DNA of 64,000 nucleotides, taken from assembly GCF_001427635.1 (NCBI RefSeq), contig NZ_LMHA01000002.1:496001-560000 (forward strand), read 5' to 3'. Position 1 is the stretch's first letter. The number at the start of each line of letters is the position of its first letter. Shown piece after piece: positions 42,983 to 54,261 of the stretch. This stretch comes from Pseudoxanthomonas sp. Root65 (GTDB taxonomy: Bacteria; Pseudomonadota; Gammaproteobacteria; Xanthomonadales; Xanthomonadaceae). The notes under the pieces are model-generated. The model saw only the letters and a program-made list of their open reading frames with translations. It searched no databases and had not been told where the DNA came from. A program made the position numbers and the translations under genes.

Positions 42983-43486
42983 ATGCTCCGCCTCCGCACC
43001 ACCCTTTTCCTGTCCTGTCTTCTGCTCACCGCGCCCGCCGTGGCGCAGGAGCGGGTGATCCCGACGGAAAACGTGCGCCTGGACTATGCGCAGGTGCTGG
43101 GTGTCGAGCCGGTCTACCAGACCCTGCGCGCCACGCGCACCGAGCAGCGCTGCGACGAAGTGCCCGCCGCCACGCCCGAGGCGCAGCCGCCGGAGCAGGA
43201 CGAAAGCCGCTGGAGCCGGATGGTCGACTCGGTCCGCGGCTGGTTCGGCGGTGACGCCGAGCCGGAGCGGGCGCCCCCGGTGACGCTGCCCCCGGTCAAG
43301 GTCAACTGCCGCGTGGTGCCGATCGAGCGCGAATTCCAGCGCCCCATTGCCTACGACGTGGACTACATCTACAAGGGCGTGAAGTACCGTTCGCGCCTGG
43401 CCGAAGACCCCGGCAACCGCCTGCGCATCCGCATCTCCGTGGTGCCCTACGTGGCGCCCGCCCAGTCCACCGCCAGCGGCCCCTGA
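42983..43486 (+). CDS. exported protein with YcfJ-like C-terminal domain
   Basis: 167 residues. Signal peptide (about 1-21, ending AVAQ), two cysteines (about 57 and 109), and a C-terminal pattern YDVDYIYKGVKYRSRLAEDPGN similar to YcfJ/17-kDa antigen family outer-membrane proteins, but the glycine-zipper part is absent. Probably periplasmic or envelope-associated. Function unknown. It is followed by the arginine leader. Confidence 0.6.
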   Translation: MLRLRTTLFLSCLLLTAPAVAQERVIPTENVRLDYAQVLGVEPVYQTLRATRTEQRCDEVPAATPEAQPPEQDESRWSRMVDSVRGWFGGDAEPERAPPVTLPPVKVNCRVVPIEREFQRPIAYDVDYIYKGVKYRSRLAEDPGNRLRIRISVVPYVAPAQSTASGP

Positions 43487-43559
43487 TTCCGTGCCTGGTT
43501 GCACACGCAACCGAATCCATCCTTGCGCTGCGCCGCAGCACATGCGAGCATTCGCGCCC

Positions 43560-43652
43560 ATGAAGATGAACGCACACGCCCATGCAGACAGCGCGGCCTC
43601 GCAGGCCTCGAGCATGACCTCGCGTGCGCGTCGACCGGAATCCTGCATCTAG
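43560..43652 (+). CDS. argL: arginine leader peptide (candidate)
   Basis: A 30-codon frame starting at ATG 43560 (ATGs at 43542, 43566 and 43614 are alternatives; none has a strong ribosome-binding site). Near its end is Thr-Ser-Arg-Ala-Arg-Arg: Arg codons CGT at 43623 and 43629 and the usually rare CGA at 43632. The stop TAG is at 43650-43652. The G of the stop is the first base of a segment that can pair with the terminator. The symbol is provisional. The frame matters for ribosome position, not for the peptide. Confidence 0.65.
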   Translation: MKMNAHAHADSAASQASSMTSRARRPESCI

Positions 43653-43711
43653 CTGGGTAGCCCGGACGTTTTCGCCTGTTCGCCGGAACCCAGCCAGAGG
43701 CTGGGTTTTTT
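43623..43711 (+). promoter_or_regulatory. candidate arginine attenuator of the acetylornithine transcarbamylase-argG operon
   Basis: Antiterminator: GCTGGGT (43652-43658) pairs with ACCCAGC (43688-43694), extended by CCGG (43662-43665) with CCGG (43683-43686). Terminator: AACCCAGCC (43687-43695) with GGCTGGGTT (43699-43707), then six T. They are mutually exclusive because both use 43688-43694. A ribosome stalled on the Arg codons leaves 43652-43658 free and favours antitermination; one at the stop codon covers it and favours termination. Confidence 0.75.
43687..43711 (+). terminator. attenuator terminator upstream of acetylornithine transcarbamylase
   Basis: 9-bp stem AACCCAGCC/GGCTGGGTT with AGA loop and T6 tail, 47 bases before the start codon of the first structural gene. 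Confidence 0.85.
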
Positions 43712-43757
43712 CGTTTCTGAAGCCCGTTTGCCACATTCCCGACACCAGGATGCCGTA

Positions 43758-44762
43758 ATGAAGCACTTCTTGAACACGCAGGACTGGAGCCGCAGCGACC
43801 TCGACGCGCTGCTGACGCAGGCCGCCCTCTACAAGCAGCACAAGCTGGGCGATGCGCTGAAAGGCAAGTCCATCGCCCTGGTGTTCTTCAATCCGTCCAT
43901 GCGCACCCGCACCAGCTTCGAGCTGGGCGCGTTCCAGCTGGGCGGCCATGCGGTAGTGCTGCAGCCGGGCAAGGACGCGTGGCCGATCGAGTTCAACCTG
44001 GGCACGGTGATGGACGGCGACACCGAAGAGCACATCGCCGAAGTGGCGAAGGTGCTGGGCCGCTACGTCGACCTGATCGGCGTGCGTGCGTTCCCGAAGT
44101 TCGTCGACTGGACCTACGACCGCGAGGACATCGTGCTCACGTCGTTCGCCAAGTATTCGCCGGTGCCGGTGATCAACATGGAAACCATCACCCATCCCTG
44201 CCAGGAACTGGCGCATGCGCTGGCGCTGCAGGAGCACTTCGGTACCCAGGACCTGCGCGGCAAGAAGTACGTGCTCACCTGGACCTATCACCCCAAGCCG
44301 CTCAATACCGCCGTGGCCAACTCGGCGCTGACCATCGCCACGCGCCTTGGCATGGACGTGACCCTGCTGTGCCCCACGCCGGACTACGTGCTGGACGAGC
44401 GCTACATGGGCTGGGCCGAACAGAACGTGGCCGAGAGCGGCGGTTCGCTGCAGGTGAGCCACGACATCGACAGCGCCTATGCCGGCGCCGACGTGGTGTA
44501 CGCCAAGAGCTGGGGCGCGCTGCCGTTCTTCGGCAACTGGGAGCCGGAAAAGCCGATCCGCGACCAGTACAAGCACTTCATCGTCGACGAGCGGAAGATG
44601 GCGCTGACCAACAACGGCGTCTTCAGCCACTGCCTGCCGCTGCGCCGCAACGTCAAGGCCACCGACGGCGTGATGGATTCGCCGCAGTGCATCGCCATCG
44701 ACGAAGCCGAGAACCGCTTGCATGTGCAGAAGGCGATCATGGCCGCCCTGATGCAGCAGTGA
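43758..44762 (+). CDS. argF': N-acetylornithine carbamoyltransferase
   Basis: 334 residues, very close to the Xanthomonas campestris enzyme as I recall it. Carbamoyl-phosphate motif SMRTRTS (47-53), Glu90 in DTEEH (equivalent to the Glu92 that favours acetylornithine over ornithine), HPCQ and HCLPLRRN. It makes N-acetylcitrulline from N-acetylornithine and carbamoyl phosphate. ATG 43758. First gene of the arginine cluster, behind the attenuator. Confidence 0.95.
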
Positions 44763-44865: not shown

Positions 44866-46062
44866 ATGAACGACTCCAAAGACATCGTCCTCGCCTTCTC
44901 TGGCGGCCTCGACACCAGCTTCTGCGTGCCCTATCTGAAGGAACGCGGCTGGAACGTGCATACCGTGTTCGCCGACACCGGCGGGGTGGATGCCGAAGAG
45001 CGCGCCTTCATCGAGCAGCGCGCCGCCGAGCTGGGCGTGGCCAGCCACGTCACCGTCGATGGCGGTCCCGCCATCTGGGACGGCTTCGTCAAGCCGTTCG
45101 TGTGGGCGGGCGAGGGTTACCAGGGCCAGTATCCGTTGCTGGTGTCCGACCGCTACCTGATCGTCGATGCGGCACTGAAGCGCGCCGCCGAACTGGGCAC
45201 CAATGCCATCGCGCACGGCTGCACCGGCATGGGCAACGACCAGGTGCGCTTCGACCTGGCGGTGAAGGCCAGCGGCGACTACCGGATCGTGGCGCCGATC
45301 CGCGAGATCCAGAAGGAACACACGCAGACCCGCGCGTACGAACAGGCCTACCTGGAAGAGCGCGGCTTCGGCGTGCGCGCCAAGCAGAAGAGCTACACCA
45401 TCAACGAGAACCTGCTGGGCCTGACCATGTCCGGCGGCGAGATCGACACGTGGTCCGCGCCGGGCGAAGGCGCACGTGGCTGGTGCGCACCGCGTGCCGA
45501 GTGGCCCGAAGCACCGCTGCGGGTGACGATCGGTTTCAAGCACGGTGAAGCGGTTAGCCTGGACGGCCAACCCGTCGCCGGGGCCGCGCTGCTGGCCAAG
45601 TTGAATGCGCTGTTCGCGCCTTACGGAGTCGGTCGTGGCGTGTATACCGGCGACACCGTGATCGGCCTGAAGGGCCGCATCGTGTTCGAGGCGCCGGGCC
45701 TGGTGTCGCTGCTGGCCGCGCACCGCGCGCTGGAAGAGACCGTGCTGACCAAACAGCAGAACCGCTTCAAGCCGGAGGTCGCGCGCAAGTGGGTGGAGCT
45801 GGTGTACGAAGGCTTCTACCACGATCCGCTGAAGGCGGACCTGGAGGCCTTCCTGCAGTCCTCTCAGGCCACCGTCAACGGCGAGGTGGTGCTGGAGACC
45901 CGTGGTGGTCGCGTCGATGCGGTGGCGGTGACGTCGCCGCACATCCTCAACGCCAAGGGCGCGACCTATGCGCAGTCGGCAGACTGGGGCGTGGAGGAAG
46001 CGGAAGGCTTCATCAAGCTGTTCGGCATGAGCTCGACCCTGTGGGCCGAGATCAATCGCTGA
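44866..46062 (+). CDS. argG: argininosuccinate synthase
   Basis: 398 residues; ATP pyrophosphatase loop [10 protein letters not shown] (9-18), followed by the [15 protein letters not shown] citrulline/aspartate-site segment. It joins citrulline and aspartate. In this pathway citrulline comes from N-acetylcitrulline by the ArgE-type deacetylase encoded next. ATG 44866; upstream in-frame codons are in the inverted-repeat region. Confidence 0.97.
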
Positions 46063-46082
46063 GTCTTCAGGAAAAGCCCTGC

Positions 46083-46178
46083 CGTCATTCCAGCGCAAGC
46101 TGGAATCCAAATTGATTCTGCCTCGAATGCTTCAGAGGCAAGAGCAGAATGGATCCCGGCGTTCGCCGGGATGACGTC
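46083..46178. repeat. palindromic repeat pair, family B, copy 3
   Basis: GTCATTCCAGCGCAAGCTGG at 46083-46108 region and an inverted relative (GATCCCGGCGTTCGCCGGGA) around 46149-46178, between argG and argE. Confidence 0.75.
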
Positions 46179-46208
46179 TGAAACGACGACGGTCCACGGA
46201 TACCCACC

Positions 46209-47291
46209 ATGTTGCCATCAGTTCTCCAACACCTCGAAAAACTGGTGTCCTTCGACACCCGCAATCCCCCGCGCGATATCGGCACCGATGGGATCTTCGA
46301 CTACCTGCGCGCGCAGCTGCCGGACTTCCGCATCGAAGTGACCGACCACGGCGCGGGCGCGGTGTCATTCTTCGCCGTGCGGGGCCAGCCGAAGCGGGTG
46401 TTCAACGTGCACCTGGACACGGTGCCGTCGTCGCCGGCCTGGAGCGCCAGCCCGCATGTGCTGCGTGTCGAAGGCGATCGCGCCATCGGCCTGGGGGCCT
46501 GCGACATCAAGGGTGCGGCGGCAGCGCTGGTCGCGGCCGCGCAGGTGACGCAGGGGGACGCAGCGTTCCTGTTCACCACCGACGAGGAAGCGAACGATGC
46601 GCGCTGCATCGCCGCGTTCCTCGCCCGCGACCACGGCTTCGGCGAAGCCATCATCGCCGAACCGACGCGCTGCGAAGCCGTGCTCGCACACCGAGGCATC
46701 AGCGCCGTCCGCATGGCATTCACTGGACAGGCGGGACATGCCTCGGCCGAGAACGCGCTGTCGCTCAGCGCGCTGCACAACGCCATGCGCTGGGGCACGA
46801 CCGTGCTGGATTTCGTGCAGGACCAGCATCACCTGCGCTTCGGCGGGCTGACCGGCCTGCGCTTCAACATCGGTCGGGTCGAAGGCGGCATCAAGGCGAA
46901 CATGATCGCCCCGAGCGCGGAAGTCCGCTTCGGCTTCCGGCCGCTGCCGTCGCAGGACATGGACCAGTTGCACGCCACGTTCCGCGGGTTCGCCAACGCC
47001 GATGCGCTGGCCGAGTACGAAGAGACCTTCCGCGGCCCGTCGCTGCCATCGGGCGATGTCGCCCGCGCCGAGGAGCGCCGCCTCGCCGCGCGCGACCTGG
47101 CCGACGAACTCGGCTTGACGATCGGCAACGCGGTGGATTTCTGGACCGAGGCCTCGCTGTTCTCGGCCGCGGGCCTCACCGCCTTCGTCTACGGGCCGGG
47201 CGACATCGCCCAGGCGCATACGGCGGACGAGTGGGTGTCGCTCGAACAGTTGCAGCGTTACGCCGATAGCGTGGCAAGGATTCTCCAGTAA
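46209..47291 (+). CDS. argE: acetylornithine/N-acetylcitrulline deacetylase (M20)
   Basis: 360 residues; M20 peptidase-family metals: HLDTVPSS, GACDIKGAAAAL, TTDEEAND. In xanthomonads this enzyme deacetylates N-acetylcitrulline, the product of the acetylornithine transcarbamylase, and its position next to those genes supports that. ATG 46209. A dispersed palindrome separates it from the next gene. Confidence 0.92.
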   Translation: MLPSVLQHLEKLVSFDTRNPPRDIGTDGIFDYLRAQLPDFRIEVTDHGAGAVSFFAVRGQPKRVFNVHLDTVPSSPAWSASPHVLRVEGDRAIGLGACDIKGAAAALVAAAQVTQGDAAFLFTTDEEANDARCIAAFLARDHGFGEAIIAEPTRCEAVLAHRGISAVRMAFTGQAGHASAENALSLSALHNAMRWGTTVLDFVQDQHHLRFGGLTGLRFNIGRVEGGIKANMIAPSAEVRFGFRPLPSQDMDQLHATFRGFANADALAEYEETFRGPSLPSGDVARAEERRLAARDLADELGLTIGNAVDFWTEASLFSAAGLTAFVYGPGDIAQAHTADEWVSLEQLQRYADSVARILQ

Positions 47292-47295
47292 CCCC

Positions 47296-47358
47296 GTAGG
47301 GCGGGCCTTGGCCCGCCGTGCGCAACCCGAAGAGGTGGCGGGCCAAGGCCCGCCCTAC
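47296..47358. repeat. 22-bp inverted repeat inside the arginine operon
   Basis: GTAGGGCGGGCCTTGGCCCG plus CC at 47296-47317 and its exact reverse complement at 47337-47358, loop 19 bases. It is a dispersed palindrome type. It sits between argE and the NAGS/K gene and could stabilise or terminate part of the transcript. Confidence 0.85.
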
Positions 47359-47371
47359 AAAGCAAGAAGAC

Positions 47372-48691
47372 ATGGAATCGAACAAGCAAACCCGCCAGAC
47401 CATCATCCGCCTGCTGTCCAGCATGGCCAGTGCGAAGGAGATCTCCCAGTACGTCAAGCGTTTCTCGCAACTGGACGCGAAGCGCTTCGCGGTGGTGAAG
47501 GTCGGCGGCGCGGTGCTGCGCGACGACCTGGAGGCACTGACGTCCTCGCTGACCTTCCTGCAGGAAGTCGGCCTGACGCCGATCGTCGTGCACGGTGCCG
47601 GTCCACAGCTGGATGAGGAAATGACGGCCGCCGGGATCACCAAGCAGACCGTCAACGGCCTGCGCGTGACCACGCCGGAGGTGCTGGCGATCGTGCGCAA
47701 GGTGTTCCTGCAACAGAACTTGGCGCTGGTGGAAGCGCTGCAGCAGGTCGGTGCGCGCGCGACGTCCATCGTGTCGGGCGTATTCGAGGCCGAATACAAG
47801 GACCAGGCGACTTACGGCCTGGTCGGCGACGTCACCCGCATCAACCAGGCCCCGATCGAGGCCAGCATGAAGGCCGGTTCCATCCCGGTGATCGCCAGCA
47901 TGGGCGAAACCGTGGGCGGCCAGATCCTCAACATCAACGCCGACTTCGCCGCCAACGAACTGGTGCAGGTACTGCAGCCGTACAAGATCATCTTCCTGAC
48001 CGGCACCGGTGGCCTGCTGGATGCGGAGGGGCGCGTGATCGATTCGATCAACCTGTCCACCGAATACGACGAGCTGATGGCGCAGCCGTGGATCAACGGC
48101 GGCATGCGGGTGAAGATCGAGCAGATCAAGGACCTGCTGGACCGGTTGCCGCTGACCTCGTCGGTGTCCATCACCAAGCCGGCCGAACTGGCCAAGGAGC
48201 TGTTCACCCATCGCGGCTCGGGCACGCTGGTGCGTCGCGGCGAGCGGGTACTGCGTTTCGAGGGCGGCTGGGAAGGCGTGGACCTGCCGCGCCTGAAGAC
48301 GCTGATCGAATCCAGCTTCGGCCGCACGCTGCTGCCGGACTACTTCGAGCGCACCACGCCCTACCGCGTCTACATCAGCGAGAACTACCGCACCGCGCTG
48401 ATCCTGACGCAGGAGGAAGGCTTCGCCTATCTCGACAAATTCGCGGTGCTGGACGATGCGCAGGGCGAAGGCCTGGGTCGTGCGGTCTGGCACGTGATGC
48501 GCGAGGAGAACCCGCAGCTGTTCTGGCGCTCGCGCCACAACAACCAGGTCAACATCTTCTACTACGCCGAGTCCGACGGCTGCTACAAGCAGGAGAAGTG
48601 GAAGGTGTTCTGGTACGGCATCGAGGACTTCGGCGACATCGAGCGCTGCGTGGCGCATTGCCGCACGCGCTTGCCGACACTGAAGGACTGA
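47372..48691 (+). CDS. argB: bifunctional N-acetylglutamate synthase/kinase (NAGS/K)
   Basis: 439 residues. Residues about 30-280 are an amino-acid kinase domain ([19 protein letters not shown](R)VKIEQ); about 290-439 is a GNAT/NAT domain ([28 protein letters not shown]). This fused architecture is known from Xanthomonas and related to mitochondrial NAGS. It carries the first two steps of arginine synthesis and is the expected site of arginine feedback. ATG 47372. Confidence 0.95.
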
Positions 48692-48692
48692 C

Positions 48693-49316
48693 ATGACGAA
48701 CCCATCGCTTCCCGCCGCCTGGCAGCAGGTTCCCGTCCTGACCGGGCGCCACGCGCGCCTGGAGCCGATGTCGCGCGAGCACATCCAGTGCCTGCGCGCC
48801 GCCTTGGCCGGCGACGCCCTGGCCACGCTGTGGTTCACGCAGGTGCCGAAGGCGGCGGATGCGGAGGCCTACGTCGAGGTCGTGCTCGCGGCGCAGGCCG
48901 ACGGTCGCGTACTGCCGTTCGTCGTGCGTGATGCCAGCGGCCGCGTCGTCGGCAGCACGCGCTACTACGGGCTGGAAGCGGACGTGCCCAAGCTCAGTAT
49001 CGGCTACACCTGGTATGCGCCCGAGGTGCAGCGGACCGGCGTCAACACCGAGACCAAGCTGTTGCTGCTCGCCCACGCGTTCGAGACACTGGGCTGCATC
49101 AGCGTGGTGTTCGAGACCAGCTGGTTCAACCAGCGCTCGCGCGCGGCCATCGCCCGGCTGGGCGCCAAGCAGGACGGCGTGCTGCGCAACCACAAGCGCC
49201 ACGCCGACGGTTCGCCGCGCGATACCGTCGTCTTTTCCATCATCGACAGCGAGTGGCCCGCGGTGAAACGCAACCTGCAGGCCCGGCTGGCGCAGCACGA
49301 ACAGGATTCCCCATGA
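48693..49316 (+). CDS. GNAT-family N-acetyltransferase
   Basis: 207 residues, RimJ/RimL-like: LEPMSREHI near the start, VVGSTRYYG, a central [24 protein letters not shown] acetyl-CoA region, and [22 protein letters not shown]. The acceptor is unknown. It is locked between NAGS/K and argC with a one-base gap and an ATGA overlap, so it probably works in the same pathway or hitchhikes on it. Confidence 0.8.
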
Positions 49317-50275
49317 GCAGCAAGAAGACCGTCGGCATCGTCGGCGCCCGCGGCCACACCGGCGCGGAGCTGATCCGCCTGATCGCCCACCATCCGCATC
49401 TCGCGCTGGCCTTCGTGTCCTCGCGCGAGCTGGACGGGCAGCGGGTCAGCGACCACATCCCCGGTTTCAGCGGCGAACTGCGCTACGAGAACCTCAGCCA
49501 CGAGCAGGTCGGCGGCAAGGGCGCGGACGCGGTGATCCTGGCGCTGCCCAATGGCAAGGCGGCGCAACTGGTCGCCGCCATCGACGCGCAGGCGCCGGAC
49601 GCGGTCGTCGTCGACCTGTCGGCGGACTTCCGCTTCGATGAGCGCTGGTACTACGGCCTGCCCGAGCTGACCCGGCAGACGTACGCGGGGCAGAAGCGCA
49701 TCAGCAATCCCGGCTGCTATGCCACCGCCATGCAGCTGGCCATCGCGCCGCTGCGCGACCGTCTGGCCGGACCGCCGCAGTGCTTCGGCGTGTCGGGCTA
49801 TTCCGGCGCCGGCACCACGCCCTCGGACAAGAACAACACCGAGCTGCTGCGCGACAACCTGATGCCGTACGCGCTGACCGACCACATGCACGAGCGCGAG
49901 GTCAGCCGGCAGCTCGGCCTGCCGGTGGAATTCATGCCGCATGTCGCACCGCACTTCCGCGGCATCACCATGACGGTCAACCTGTGGTTGCAGCAGGCGA
50001 TGACGGTCGATGACGTCCGTGCGCTGTATCGCCAGCGCTACGCGGACGAGCCGCTGATCCGCATCCTCGACGAGGCGCCCTGGGTCAGCCGCATCGCCGG
50101 CCGGCATGGCGTGGAGATCGGCGGCTTCACCCTGGCGCCCGGCGGCAAGCGGCTGGTGGTGGTGGCCACGCTCGACAACCTGCTCAAGGGTGCGGCCACG
50201 CAGGCGATGCAGAACCTCAACCTGGCGTTCGGGTTCAACGAACTGGACAGCATTCCGCAGGAGATGGTGGCATGA
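49313..50275 (+). CDS. argC: N-acetyl-gamma-glutamyl-phosphate reductase
   Basis: 320 residues; NADP-binding [14 protein letters not shown], catalytic Cys135 in SNPGCYATA. Third step of arginine synthesis. ATG 49313 overlaps the GNAT stop, and its own stop overlaps argH (ATGA). Confidence 0.95.
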
Positions 50276-51564
50276 GCGACCTGTTGTGGCAGAAACCCGG
50301 CGTGGCGGTGGACGCGGAGATCCAGCGTTTCCTCGCCGGTGACGACGTGCTGCTGGACCGCGAGTTCTTCCTGCACGACATCCAGGCCAGCGCCGCGCAC
50401 GCGGAAGGCCTGCAGCGCATCGGCATCCTGTCCGGCGACGAACTGACGGGCTTGAAGCGCGAACTCGACACCCTGGCGGACGACTTCCGTCGCGGCGACT
50501 TCATCCTTGATGAACGCTTCGAGGATGGCCACTCCGCCATCGAGGCGCGGCTGACCGAGCGGCTGGGCGATGCCGGCCGCAAGATCCACACCGGCCGCAG
50601 CCGCAACGACCAGATCCTCGTCGCCACGCGCCTGTGGCTGAAGGAAAAGCTGGCGCGCGTGGCCACGCTGTCGCGCGAGATCGCCAAGGTCGCGCTGGAC
50701 CGCGCGCAGGCTGAACGCGACCTGCCGCTTCCCGGCTACACGCATATCCAGCGCGCCGTCGTGTCGTCGGCGGGCATGTGGTGGGCCGGCTGGGCCGAAG
50801 CCTTCCTCGACAACGCGATCCGCGCGCGCGACACGCTGGCGCTGGTCGATGCCAATCCGCTCGGCACTGCCGCCGGCTACGGCGTCAACCTGAAGCTGGA
50901 CCGCGAACACACCACTGCCGCGCTCGGCTTTGCGCGCATGCAGGTCAGTCCGATCTACGCGCAGCTCTCGCGCGGCAAGTTCGAGATGGCCGCGCTGGAA
51001 GCGCTGGGCGGCGCCACGCTCGACCTGCGCCGCATCGCCTGGGACCTGTCGCTGTTCACCAGCGCGGAATTCGGCTTCGTCGCACTGCCGGCGCAGTACA
51101 CCACCGGCAGTTCCATCATGCCGAACAAGCGCAATCCCGATGTCATCGAGCTGATGCGCGCCACCCACGCCAGCGTGTCGGCCGCACGCAGCGAGATCGA
51201 ACAGCTGCTGTCGCTGCCGTCCGGCTACCACCGCGACCTGCAGGCCAGCAAGGGCGCCATCTTCCACGGCTTCGGCCGCGGCTTGCCGGCGCTGGAACTG
51301 CTGCCCGCGCTGCTGGCCAACCTGGAATGGCGTGAAGACAAGCTGCGGGCCGCGATCGATTCCGGCATGTACGCCACCGACGTCGCCGTGGAAGCTGCGG
51401 TCGCCGGCGTGCCGTTCCGCGAGGCCTACAAGGCCGCCGCCGCGTCTGCCGACAGTGCGGGGCAGGGTCGCACGCCCGAAGGCAGCCTCGCCGCACGCGT
51501 GTCGCCCGGTGCGGCCGCCGACCTGCGCCTGGACGAACTGCTCGCACGCTGGAGTGCGCTGTGA
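50272..51564 (+). CDS. argH: argininosuccinate lyase
   Basis: 430 residues, fumarase/aspartase superfamily signature [12 protein letters not shown] plus HTGRSRNDQ. Splits argininosuccinate to arginine and fumarate. ATG 50272; the stop overlaps the next gene (GTGA). Confidence 0.97.
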
Positions 51565-51827: not shown

Positions 51828-52976
51828 ATGACCCACGCCACGCCGCTGCCGTTCACCGAACACCCGTTGCCGGCCTGGCGACGCGCCGTGCTGAAGGTCG
51901 GCAGCAGCCTGCTGGCAGCCGACGGCGAAGGTCTCAGTCCGCGGCATGCGCTGAACCTGGCGCAGTTCGTGTCGTCCAGCATCGCGGCGGGCAGGGAAGT
52001 GGTCATCGTCTCGTCGGGCGCGGTCGCGGCGGGTCGCGGCCTGCTGCACCGCAAGCCGCAGGCCGGTGTGGCGATGGCCGAACGGCAGGCGCTGGCAGCG
52101 TTGGGCCAGGCGCAGCTGATCGCGCTGTGGCAGCGCTTCTTCGACCGTCCCGTCGCGCAGGTCCTGCTGACGCATGACGACCTGCGCAACCGCCGCCGTT
52201 ACCTCAACGCGCGCGCCACGCTGCAGGAACTGCTGGCACTCGGCGCCCTGCCGGTGGTCAACGAGAACGACACCGTGTCGGTCGACGAGCTCAAGCTCGG
52301 CGACAACGACAATCTCGCCGCCGTGGTCGCGGCGCTGATCGATGCCGATGCGCTGTTCATCGCCACCGACATCGACGGCTTCTACACCGCCAACCCGCGC
52401 ACGCATGTGGACGCGCAGCCGATTCTCGACGTGGAAGCGCTGACCCCCGAGTTCTTCGCCATGGCCGGCGGTGCCGGCAGCGGCGTCGGCACCGGCGGCA
52501 TGCATACCAAGCTGGAAGCGGCGGCCAAGGCGGCGGCGGCCGGCATCGAGACCTTCCTGTTCAACGGCACGCAGGCCACCACCGTGTCGGCGCTGTCGCG
52601 CGGCGCGTTGCTGGGCACGCGGTTCCGTCCCGCGCAGAACCGGCTGGCCGCGCGCAAGTACTGGCTGCGCAACGTGCCGGTGGAGTCCGGGGCCATCGTG
52701 GTCGATGTCGGCGCGGCGAATGCGATGGGGCAGAAGGGCGCCTCGCTGCTGCCGGGCGGCGTGACGACCGCCGAGGGCGATTTCCGTCGCGGCGACATGG
52801 TCGAGCTGGTGCTGCGCGACGCGGCGGGCGACCGTCGCATCGCCTGCGGCGTCAGCCAGTATTCGGCGGTCGACATCCGCCGCATCGCACGCCGCCATTC
52901 GCGCGAGATCGAAGCCATCCTTGGTTACACCTACGGCGAGAACGTCGTCCATCGCGACGATCTGGTGCTGCTGTGA
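51828..52976 (+). CDS. proB: glutamate 5-kinase
   Basis: 382 residues: amino-acid kinase domain ([35 protein letters not shown]) and C-terminal PUA domain (about 290-370). First step of proline synthesis. ATG 51828. Followed 22 bases later by proA. Confidence 0.96.
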
Positions 52977-52998
52977 CGATGCTGGGCAAGGAGTTCGC

Positions 52999-54261
52999 AT
53001 GACCGAAATCACGACGCTGGCGCTGCAATGCCGCGACGCGGCCACCGCCATCGCATCCTTGCCGACGGAAGCGAAGAACACCCTGCTGCGCGCGATGGCC
53101 GATGCGCTGCTGGCCGACGAAGCCGCGATCCTGGCGGCCAATGCGCGTGATCTGGAAGCGGCGGCAGCGAAAGGCATCGGCACTGCCATGCTGGACCGCC
53201 TGCGGCTGGATGTGGCGCGTCTGCACGGCATCGCGGCCGCCGTGCGCGAGGTGGCGGATCTGCCCGATCCGGTGCGGCAGGTGACCCGCGCCTACGACCG
53301 TCCCAACGGCATCCACGTCGAACGCGTGCGCGTGCCGCTGGGCGTGATCGCGATGATCTACGAGGCGCGGCCGAACGTCACCGCCGATGCGGCGGCACTG
53401 TGCCTGAAGGCCGGCAACGCGGTGATCCTGCGCGGCGGGTCGGAGGCGATCCATTCCAACACCGCCATCGCAGCGGCCTTGAAGCGTGCGCTGCGCGAGG
53501 CGGGCCTGCCCGACGCGGTGCTGACGCTGGTCGAGGACCTGCGCCGCGAGACCATCCTGGAGCTGATCCAGCTCAGCGACATCGTCGACCTGGTGATCCC
53601 GCGCGGGGGCGAGGGGCTGATCCGCTTCGTTGCCGAACACGCGCGGGTGCCGGTCATCAAGCACTACAAGGGCGTCTGCCACCAGTACGTCGATGCGGGC
53701 GCGGACGAGGACCTGGCGCTGGCCCTGCTGCTGGACGGCAAGGTGTCGCGACCGTCGGCCTGCAATTCGCTGGAGACGCTGCTGGTCCACCGCGACATCG
53801 CGTCGACGTTCCTGCCGCGCGCGGCCGAGGCGCTGCGTGCGCGCGGCGTCGAGGTGCGGGCGGATACGGATGCGCAGGCGCTGATGCCCGGTGCGGTCGC
53901 CGCGACGGACGAGGATTTCGCCGCCGAGTTCCTCGATCTGGTGATCGCGGTCGGCGTGGTGGACGACCTGGACGCCGCCATCGCCCATATCCGCCGCTAC
54001 ACGTCAGACCACACCGAGGTCATCGTCACCCGCGATGCGGCGCATGCGGAGAAATTCCTCAACGCCTTGCGCTCAGCCGTGGTGATGGTCAATGCCTCGT
54101 CGAGGTTCTCGGATGGCGGTGAGCTGGGGCTGGGGGCGGAGATCGGCATCTCCACCACGCGCCTGCATAGCTATGGCCCGATGGGGTTGGAAGCGCTGAC
54201 GGTGGAGCGGTTTGTGGTGCGGGGGGAAGGGCAGGTGCGGCATCCGGACCTGCTGGGCTGA
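52999..54261 (+). CDS. proA: gamma-glutamyl phosphate reductase
   Basis: 420 residues; aldehyde dehydrogenase fold with catalytic Cys255 in [10 protein letters not shown] and IYEARPNVT near residue 120. Reduces glutamyl-5-phosphate to the semialdehyde. ATG 52999 with AAGGAG upstream. Last gene of the cluster; the next sequence is an AT-richer patch. Confidence 0.97.

Follow-up and report, generated by a model that had tools for sequence, protein, structure and literature searches.

A putative arginine attenuator in the leader of the argF' gene cluster in Pseudoxanthomonas and its relatives

The leader ahead of the arginine-synthesis cluster in Pseudoxanthomonas sp. Root65 is, to judge from sequence comparison, very probably a ribosome-mediated transcription attenuator, with arginyl-tRNA as its gauge of arginine. 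It lies within the window, by which we mean the whole 64,000-nt stretch of DNA that was analysed. The leader has the anatomy of an attenuator, this anatomy is conserved with covariation of the paired strands and near-fixed spacing, and no ArgR was found in genomes of the family; leader translation, ribosome stalling and dependence on arginine would be expected of such an element. The first-pass annotation had put forward this interpretation and had set out in advance one pattern that would speak against it, namely that relatives keep the terminator and lose the leader features. Instead, the relatives keep the frame, the Arg codons, strand 2 and the spacing, with compensatory changes, in support of the interpretation.

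The leader frame opens with ATG 43560 and closes with TAG 43650-43652 (other features are given in Table 1). Its Arg codons are CGT 43623-43625, CGT 43629-43631 and CGA 43632-43634, with GCG between the two CGT codons and CCG after CGA. Strand 2 consists of GCTGGGT at 43652-43658 and CCGG at 43662-43665, and its partner is CCGG at 43683-43686 together with AACCCAGC at 43687-43694. The terminator arms are AACCCAGCC at 43687-43695 and GGCTGGGTT at 43699-43707, with a run of six T at 43706-43711 and the argF' ATG 46 bases further downstream, at 43758. All of these elements, from the leader frame to the distance to argF', match base for base what had been claimed for them. A terminator scan of 43480-43770 found one terminator against a mean of 0.1 in shuffled sequences. 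Because the core peptide stands upstream of argF' in 81/81 loci (the window and the 80 best named relatives) and an intrinsic terminator is present in 139/139 leaders scanned (2 of 141 loci, in which the core pattern was unmatched, were omitted), the element goes beyond chance.

Table 1. Features of the leader region and the downstream genes (window coordinates)
Feature	Position	Strand	Basis
Probable promoter: TTGCG ~37 nt and weak -10 (GAGCAT) ~8 nt before leader ATG	43525..43557	+	inferred
Predicted transcription start, 2 nt upstream of leader ATG	43558..43558	+	homology: aligns to Xoo5 position 1
Leader peptide ORF, 30 codons, MKMNAHAHADSAASQASSMTSRARRPESCI (then stop)	43560..43652	+	core conserved at peptide level; predicted translation
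Conserved core MTSRARR; regulatory codons CGT 43623, CGT 43629, CGA 43632	43614..43634	+	conservation, codon usage
Strand 1 of protector hairpin (1:2), partner within 43652-43668	43632..43646	+	pairing probability
Strand 2, antiterminator 5' arm (GCTGGGT 43652-43658, CCGG 43662-43665)	43652..43668	+	sequence, folding, covariation
Strand 3, antiterminator 3' arm, reused by terminator	43683..43694	+	sequence, folding, covariation
Intrinsic terminator (3:4) plus T run	43687..43711	+	sequence, terminator scans
argF', N-acetylornithine carbamoyltransferase, first gene after leader	43758..44762	+	NCBIfam NF003384, 642.7 bits (cut-off 288)
argG, argE, argB-type acetylglutamate kinase, GNAT-like gene, argC, argH	44866..51564	+	NCBIfam; GNAT-like gene from weak matches below cut-off
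proB and proA	51828..54261	+	NCBIfam; start 263 bases after argH

According to the mechanism that we propose, transcription would start 2 nt upstream of the leader ATG. A shortage of arginyl-tRNA would make a ribosome stall at CGT-GCG-CGT-CGA and cover strand 1, leaving strand 2 free to capture strand 3 while strand 4 is still to be synthesised; the terminator could then not form, and argF'-argG-argE-argB-argC-argH would be transcribed. With ample arginine, the ribosome would reach the stop codon, which lies next to strand 2 or within it, and cover that strand, whereupon strands 3 and 4 would end transcription near 43711 and leave over a short RNA, Xoo5.

Folding of 108 distinct leaders took the RNA downstream of an assumed ribosome edge, set 16 nt from where the P codon begins. 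With the third Arg codon in the A site, 108/108 leaders have strand 3 in an upstream pairing (probability at least 0.5) before strand 4 has been transcribed, and with the ribosome at the stop codon the terminator has a probability of at least 0.5, again in 108/108. When the full RNA is folded with the ribosome occupying the third Arg codon, 103/108 leaders still favour the terminator, so antitermination would need to be kinetic. A ribosome at the stop codon does not keep strand 3 free in every leader: in 46/108, that strand still pairs with the upstream linker, at a probability of at least 0.5, before strand 4 has been made. The protector hairpin, in which strand 2 pairs with upstream sequence, has a mean pairing probability of 0.82 in the window and a probability of at least 0.5 in 79/108 leaders, with the other 29 below. 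Without a ribosome, the window RNA prefers the antiterminator (2:3), and an untranslated leader would therefore read through in the window.

Pairing was compared across 145 distinct leaders, some of them fetched by pattern. Strands 2 and 3 pair at 7/7 positions in 123 of these, at 6 in 14 and at 5 in 8, and, when the linker is shuffled by mononucleotides, the native pairing outdoes 95% of the shuffled versions in 128/145 relatives and falls short of this in 17. The third pairing position is T-A in 101, C-G in 39, T-G in 3 and C-A in 2 leaders, with about 7 changes on the argF' tree. Where the same strand 3 base pairs in the terminator, 103 leaders have A-T and 42 have G-C, meaning that three strands change together. 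Strand 2 starts 38-40 nt past the core ATG in 136/145 leaders, and the distance from the core to the terminator varies from 59 to 89 nt. Among the properties that mark an attenuator, we thus find an antiterminator strand that is common to the terminator and conserved by covariation, a near-fixed distance from the regulatory codons to strand 2, and a leader ORF, of predicted translation, with codons for the product amino acid and a terminator ahead of the first gene.

The core is widespread among near relatives. SRARR precedes argF' in 87/87 distinct leaders fetched through ArgF' from four families, and the pattern MTSRARRP, with at most one mismatch, occurs in 164/299 genomes of the order. By hand count, these fall in the window's own family (79/79) and in families f12 (74/75), f2 (3/3) and f3 (6/10), with 2/132 in all remaining families of the order, where the matches have a single mismatch and are of doubtful meaning. 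Exact matches to the pattern were seen class-wide in 5/369 genomes, and those five are the genomes of that sample that belong to the order. The Rfam model RF02242 was found in 146/198 family genomes, 82 of them over its cut-off, and in 0/14 controls. From the 52 family genomes without an Rfam match, 13 were chosen, of which 10 have a full argF', and the core is present in 10/10 (L146-L155); by these counts, RF02242 taken alone underestimates the spread of the leader. An invariant Pro after RARR was considered and rejected, Arg, Ile, Met, Cys and Asn being among the residues found there. We also noted that a record titled Bacillus subtilis SK7B5 (L063) carries a Stenotrophomonas-like argF' region together with the leader, likely reflecting contamination or mislabelling.

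Selection on the peptide was counted in the 87 distinct leaders fetched through ArgF' from the four families. Eight residues, Ala-9, Ala-6, Thr-2, Ser-1, Arg0, Ala+1, Arg+2 and Arg+3, show 0 amino-acid changes, with codon changes by parsimony of 5, 18, 20, 3, 12, 11, 9 and 2, in that order. A total of 80 silent and 0 replacement changes at eight residues, five of them not Arg, suggests that the peptide itself is selected. The 143 argF' codons without an amino-acid change (Met and Trp aside) have a median of 10 codon changes, and 3/319 eight-codon windows of argF' are replacement-free, a rough comparison given that the leader's eight codons are not contiguous. Adding the loci fetched with the Rfam model (115 leaders) introduced one Thr to Ala change, in L089. 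Most silent sites of the core vary. The 261 core Arg codons of the 87 leaders include no AGA or AGG and, among those listed, one CGG. The third core Arg codon is CGA in 85/87 leaders, and CGA accounts for 4/287 Arg codons in 11 window genes (three of these being read from a few codons early). This third codon has 2 codon changes, and since 17.5% of the replacement-free argF' codons also have at most 3, the argument from the constancy of CGA rests mainly on the rarity of this codon. In a Salmonella his-leader assay, as given in the accessible part of the report, CGA was read more slowly than CGU and CGC, and de-attenuation was high with pairs that include CGA (PMC4046918); how regulatory codons are chosen has also been treated in theory (accessible part of PMC1183508). 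The Ser codon before the first Arg codon, at 43620-43622, is TCG in 84/87 leaders.

The Arg codons, and perhaps CGA, can be accounted for by a plain attenuator, but the invariant Thr, Ser and three Ala cannot, and for this reason we weighed the reading that A..A...MTSRARR in the exit tunnel, and not only scarce arginyl-tRNA, stalls the ribosome, perhaps with a small-molecule ligand, and works the same RNA switch. The 0 amino-acid against 80 codon changes at the eight residues argue for it, as does the precedent of orf34/SpeFL, where a leader peptide containing an Arg pair is likewise conserved (PMC6386406, in the part available). Distant families, however, use other Arg-rich peptides at the same place, the leader L089 has Ala for Thr, and a ligand-dependent stall would switch the operon on with the ligand, which makes little sense for arginine. 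Stalling by the nascent chain is possible but rather doubtful, and sensing through arginyl-tRNA is the reading that we prefer.

The distant families were represented by 31 loci from f4, f5, f6, f7, f9, f10 and f11 (f8 was absent), in each of which the region upstream of the best carbamoyltransferase match was taken. In 24/31, there is a like terminator, and the Arg-richest frame carries no fewer than 3 Arg codons over the 45 nt leading up to strand 2. Their leader peptides, for example ...ELRRRRTCPKQGWVEAV and MIKYAHQKIAIRRRRGTN, differ from that of the window, and 41/123 of such Arg codons start 21-26 nt before strand 2, where the core has its second and third Arg. L186, L207, L208 and L209 are loci with a doubtful strand 2 or frame. 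The element was not seen in 7/31 loci (L166, L168 (f11), L189, L202, L205, L210 and L211), with L210 and L211 resting on partial or weak carbamoyltransferase matches. We tentatively suggest that a plain Arg-rich attenuator may have been ancestral and may have become a sequence-specific ribosome-arrest peptide in the lineage uniting Xanthomonadaceae with three neighbouring families, that the frozen A..A...MTSRARR might make translation at the slow codon CGA acutely sensitive to arginyl-tRNA or a metabolite, and that this one attenuator might replace ArgR.

Part of the leader has been seen before. Rfam Xoo5 (RF02242) matches 43558-43682 at 52.5 bits (gathering cut-off 50), covering the 5' part of the leader and stopping at 43682, short of the terminator. 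In the available portion of the original report (PMC3039613), sRNA-Xoo5 was detected in Xanthomonas by 5' RACE and Northern blot, with no function assigned; the 5' end of the Xanthomonas oryzae RNA was mapped by RACE, the RACE and clone ends gave 124 nt, and the Northern bands were about 130 and 100 nt, both being present in early growth and the short band alone in later phases. Nowhere does the main text of that report use the words arginine, argF or leader. The Northern sizes published there are smaller than the 154 nt predicted in the window (43558 to 43711), which counts against the attenuator reading. The short RNA left by attenuation would correspond to the RNA seen as Xoo5. The Rfam entry is typed as an sRNA gene, and attenuator leader may describe it better.

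In the alignment, the first position of the Rfam model falls 2 nt upstream of the leader ATG. Transcription in the window species presumably begins at this same point, 43558, in which case the leader would be nearly leaderless. The data suggest such a near-leaderless start for the window's own family only; in f12 leaders, by eye, the TTG motif is further away from the ATG. Our own-family set comprised 107 leaders (L001-L110 and L142-L155 after merging, a few of them unplaced metagenome bins). Of these, 101 have an in-frame ATG 17-19 codons upstream of the core and 97 have TTG[CT][GA] starting 35-39 nt upstream of the leader ATG, while 2 are without ATG. A scan for the sigma-70 consensus found no promoter at 43525..43557. 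The history of Xoo5 also raises the question of whether the small RNA acts in trans, or the peptide does so like Sinorhizobium peTrpL, besides or instead of attenuation. Rfam and PMC3039613, in the part available, class Xoo5 as a small RNA, the leader is conserved at the peptide level, and peTrpL offers a precedent (PMC7298713, likewise in part). We consider action in trans unlikely, given that the loci fetched through ArgF' have the leader directly upstream of argF', with the antiterminator pairing, and that variation at most silent sites of the core opposes base-pairing in trans by this segment.

ArgR-type repression had been taken as the usual model. Using PF01316, we found ArgR in 0/99 family genomes, the window's own included, with the same search positive in 9/14 controls; ArgR-type repression is therefore unlikely in the window's genome, and it was set aside. 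Across the order, ArgR was found in 8/299 genomes, all in f11, where the core pattern had no match. The idea that ArgR and the leader strictly exclude each other was rejected, as f4-f10 are also without ArgR found and some of their loci are without the leader. At L168 (f11, G207:C17:19701-22050), an ArgR match lies ~1.2 kb from the carbamoyltransferase match on the opposite strand; neither Arg leader nor terminator was seen at this locus. The weakest alternative, an ordinary terminator with chance Arg codons in an untranslated leader and regulation through another repressor, draws on a terminator that is sound by itself and on a regulator search that covered ArgR (PF01316), making another regulator possible, but peptide-level selection, near-fixed codon-to-strand spacing, covariation and the unlike Arg-rich leaders of other families make it highly improbable.

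The attenuator that we favour resembles the trp, his and leu attenuators of Proteobacteria, which have a leader ORF with codons for the product and a stop codon by strand 2, and in which protector, antiterminator and terminator share strands. It differs from these in that its amino acid is arginine, that it would be nearly leaderless by homology, and that its core is frozen over four families, with the non-Arg residues invariant too. T-boxes bind tRNA directly and have no leader ORF. The arginine T-boxes of Firmicutes are similar in exerting RNA-level control of arginine genes (PMC1262725, whose available part assigns T-boxes to arginine and attenuators to histidine, threonine and phenylalanine), and the window has no Rfam match to a T-box. 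The speF leader orf34/SpeFL (PF10940) of enterobacteria is also a short ORF with consecutive Arg codons, the reading of which controls a downstream arginine/ornithine gene (PMC6386406, available part); unlike the window leader, it controls polyamine synthesis and acts via Rho and RNase G. A search of two leader peptides against Pfam, PF10940 included, matched 0 families. RF02242 has the same locus and sequence as the leader, recorded as a small RNA.

Among other sources, each available in part, the main text of PMC2965389 does not mention arginine or argF, PMC2659441 mentions arginine once, for speA, and PMC4997734 makes mention of a Pseudomonas aeruginosa carA leader peptide and of pyrimidine attenuation. 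The literature searched, with subscription papers mostly beyond its reach, held no description of arginine attenuation of arg genes. The claim of novelty in the first-pass annotation stands to this extent, but the 5' part of the leader was already Rfam Xoo5, catalogued as a small RNA. If the attenuator is real, arginine would join the amino acids with classical attenuators, a means of controlling arginine synthesis would be suggested for an order in which ArgR was mostly not found, and an orphan catalogued small RNA would become an attenuator by-product. The leaders would also offer a natural gradation, with plain Arg-rich forms at one end and a frozen peptide at the other, in which tRNA sensing could be separated from nascent-chain effects.

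The genes between argF' and the GNAT-like gene have as NCBIfam products argininosuccinate synthase, acetylornithine deacetylase and acetylglutamate kinase, and gene order and strand suggest that the arg genes after the leader are co-transcribed. By eye, the 400 bases upstream of carA and of argD in the same genome hold no comparable leader. The proline genes proB and proA, on the same strand and 263 bases past argH, may share the transcription of the arginine cluster.
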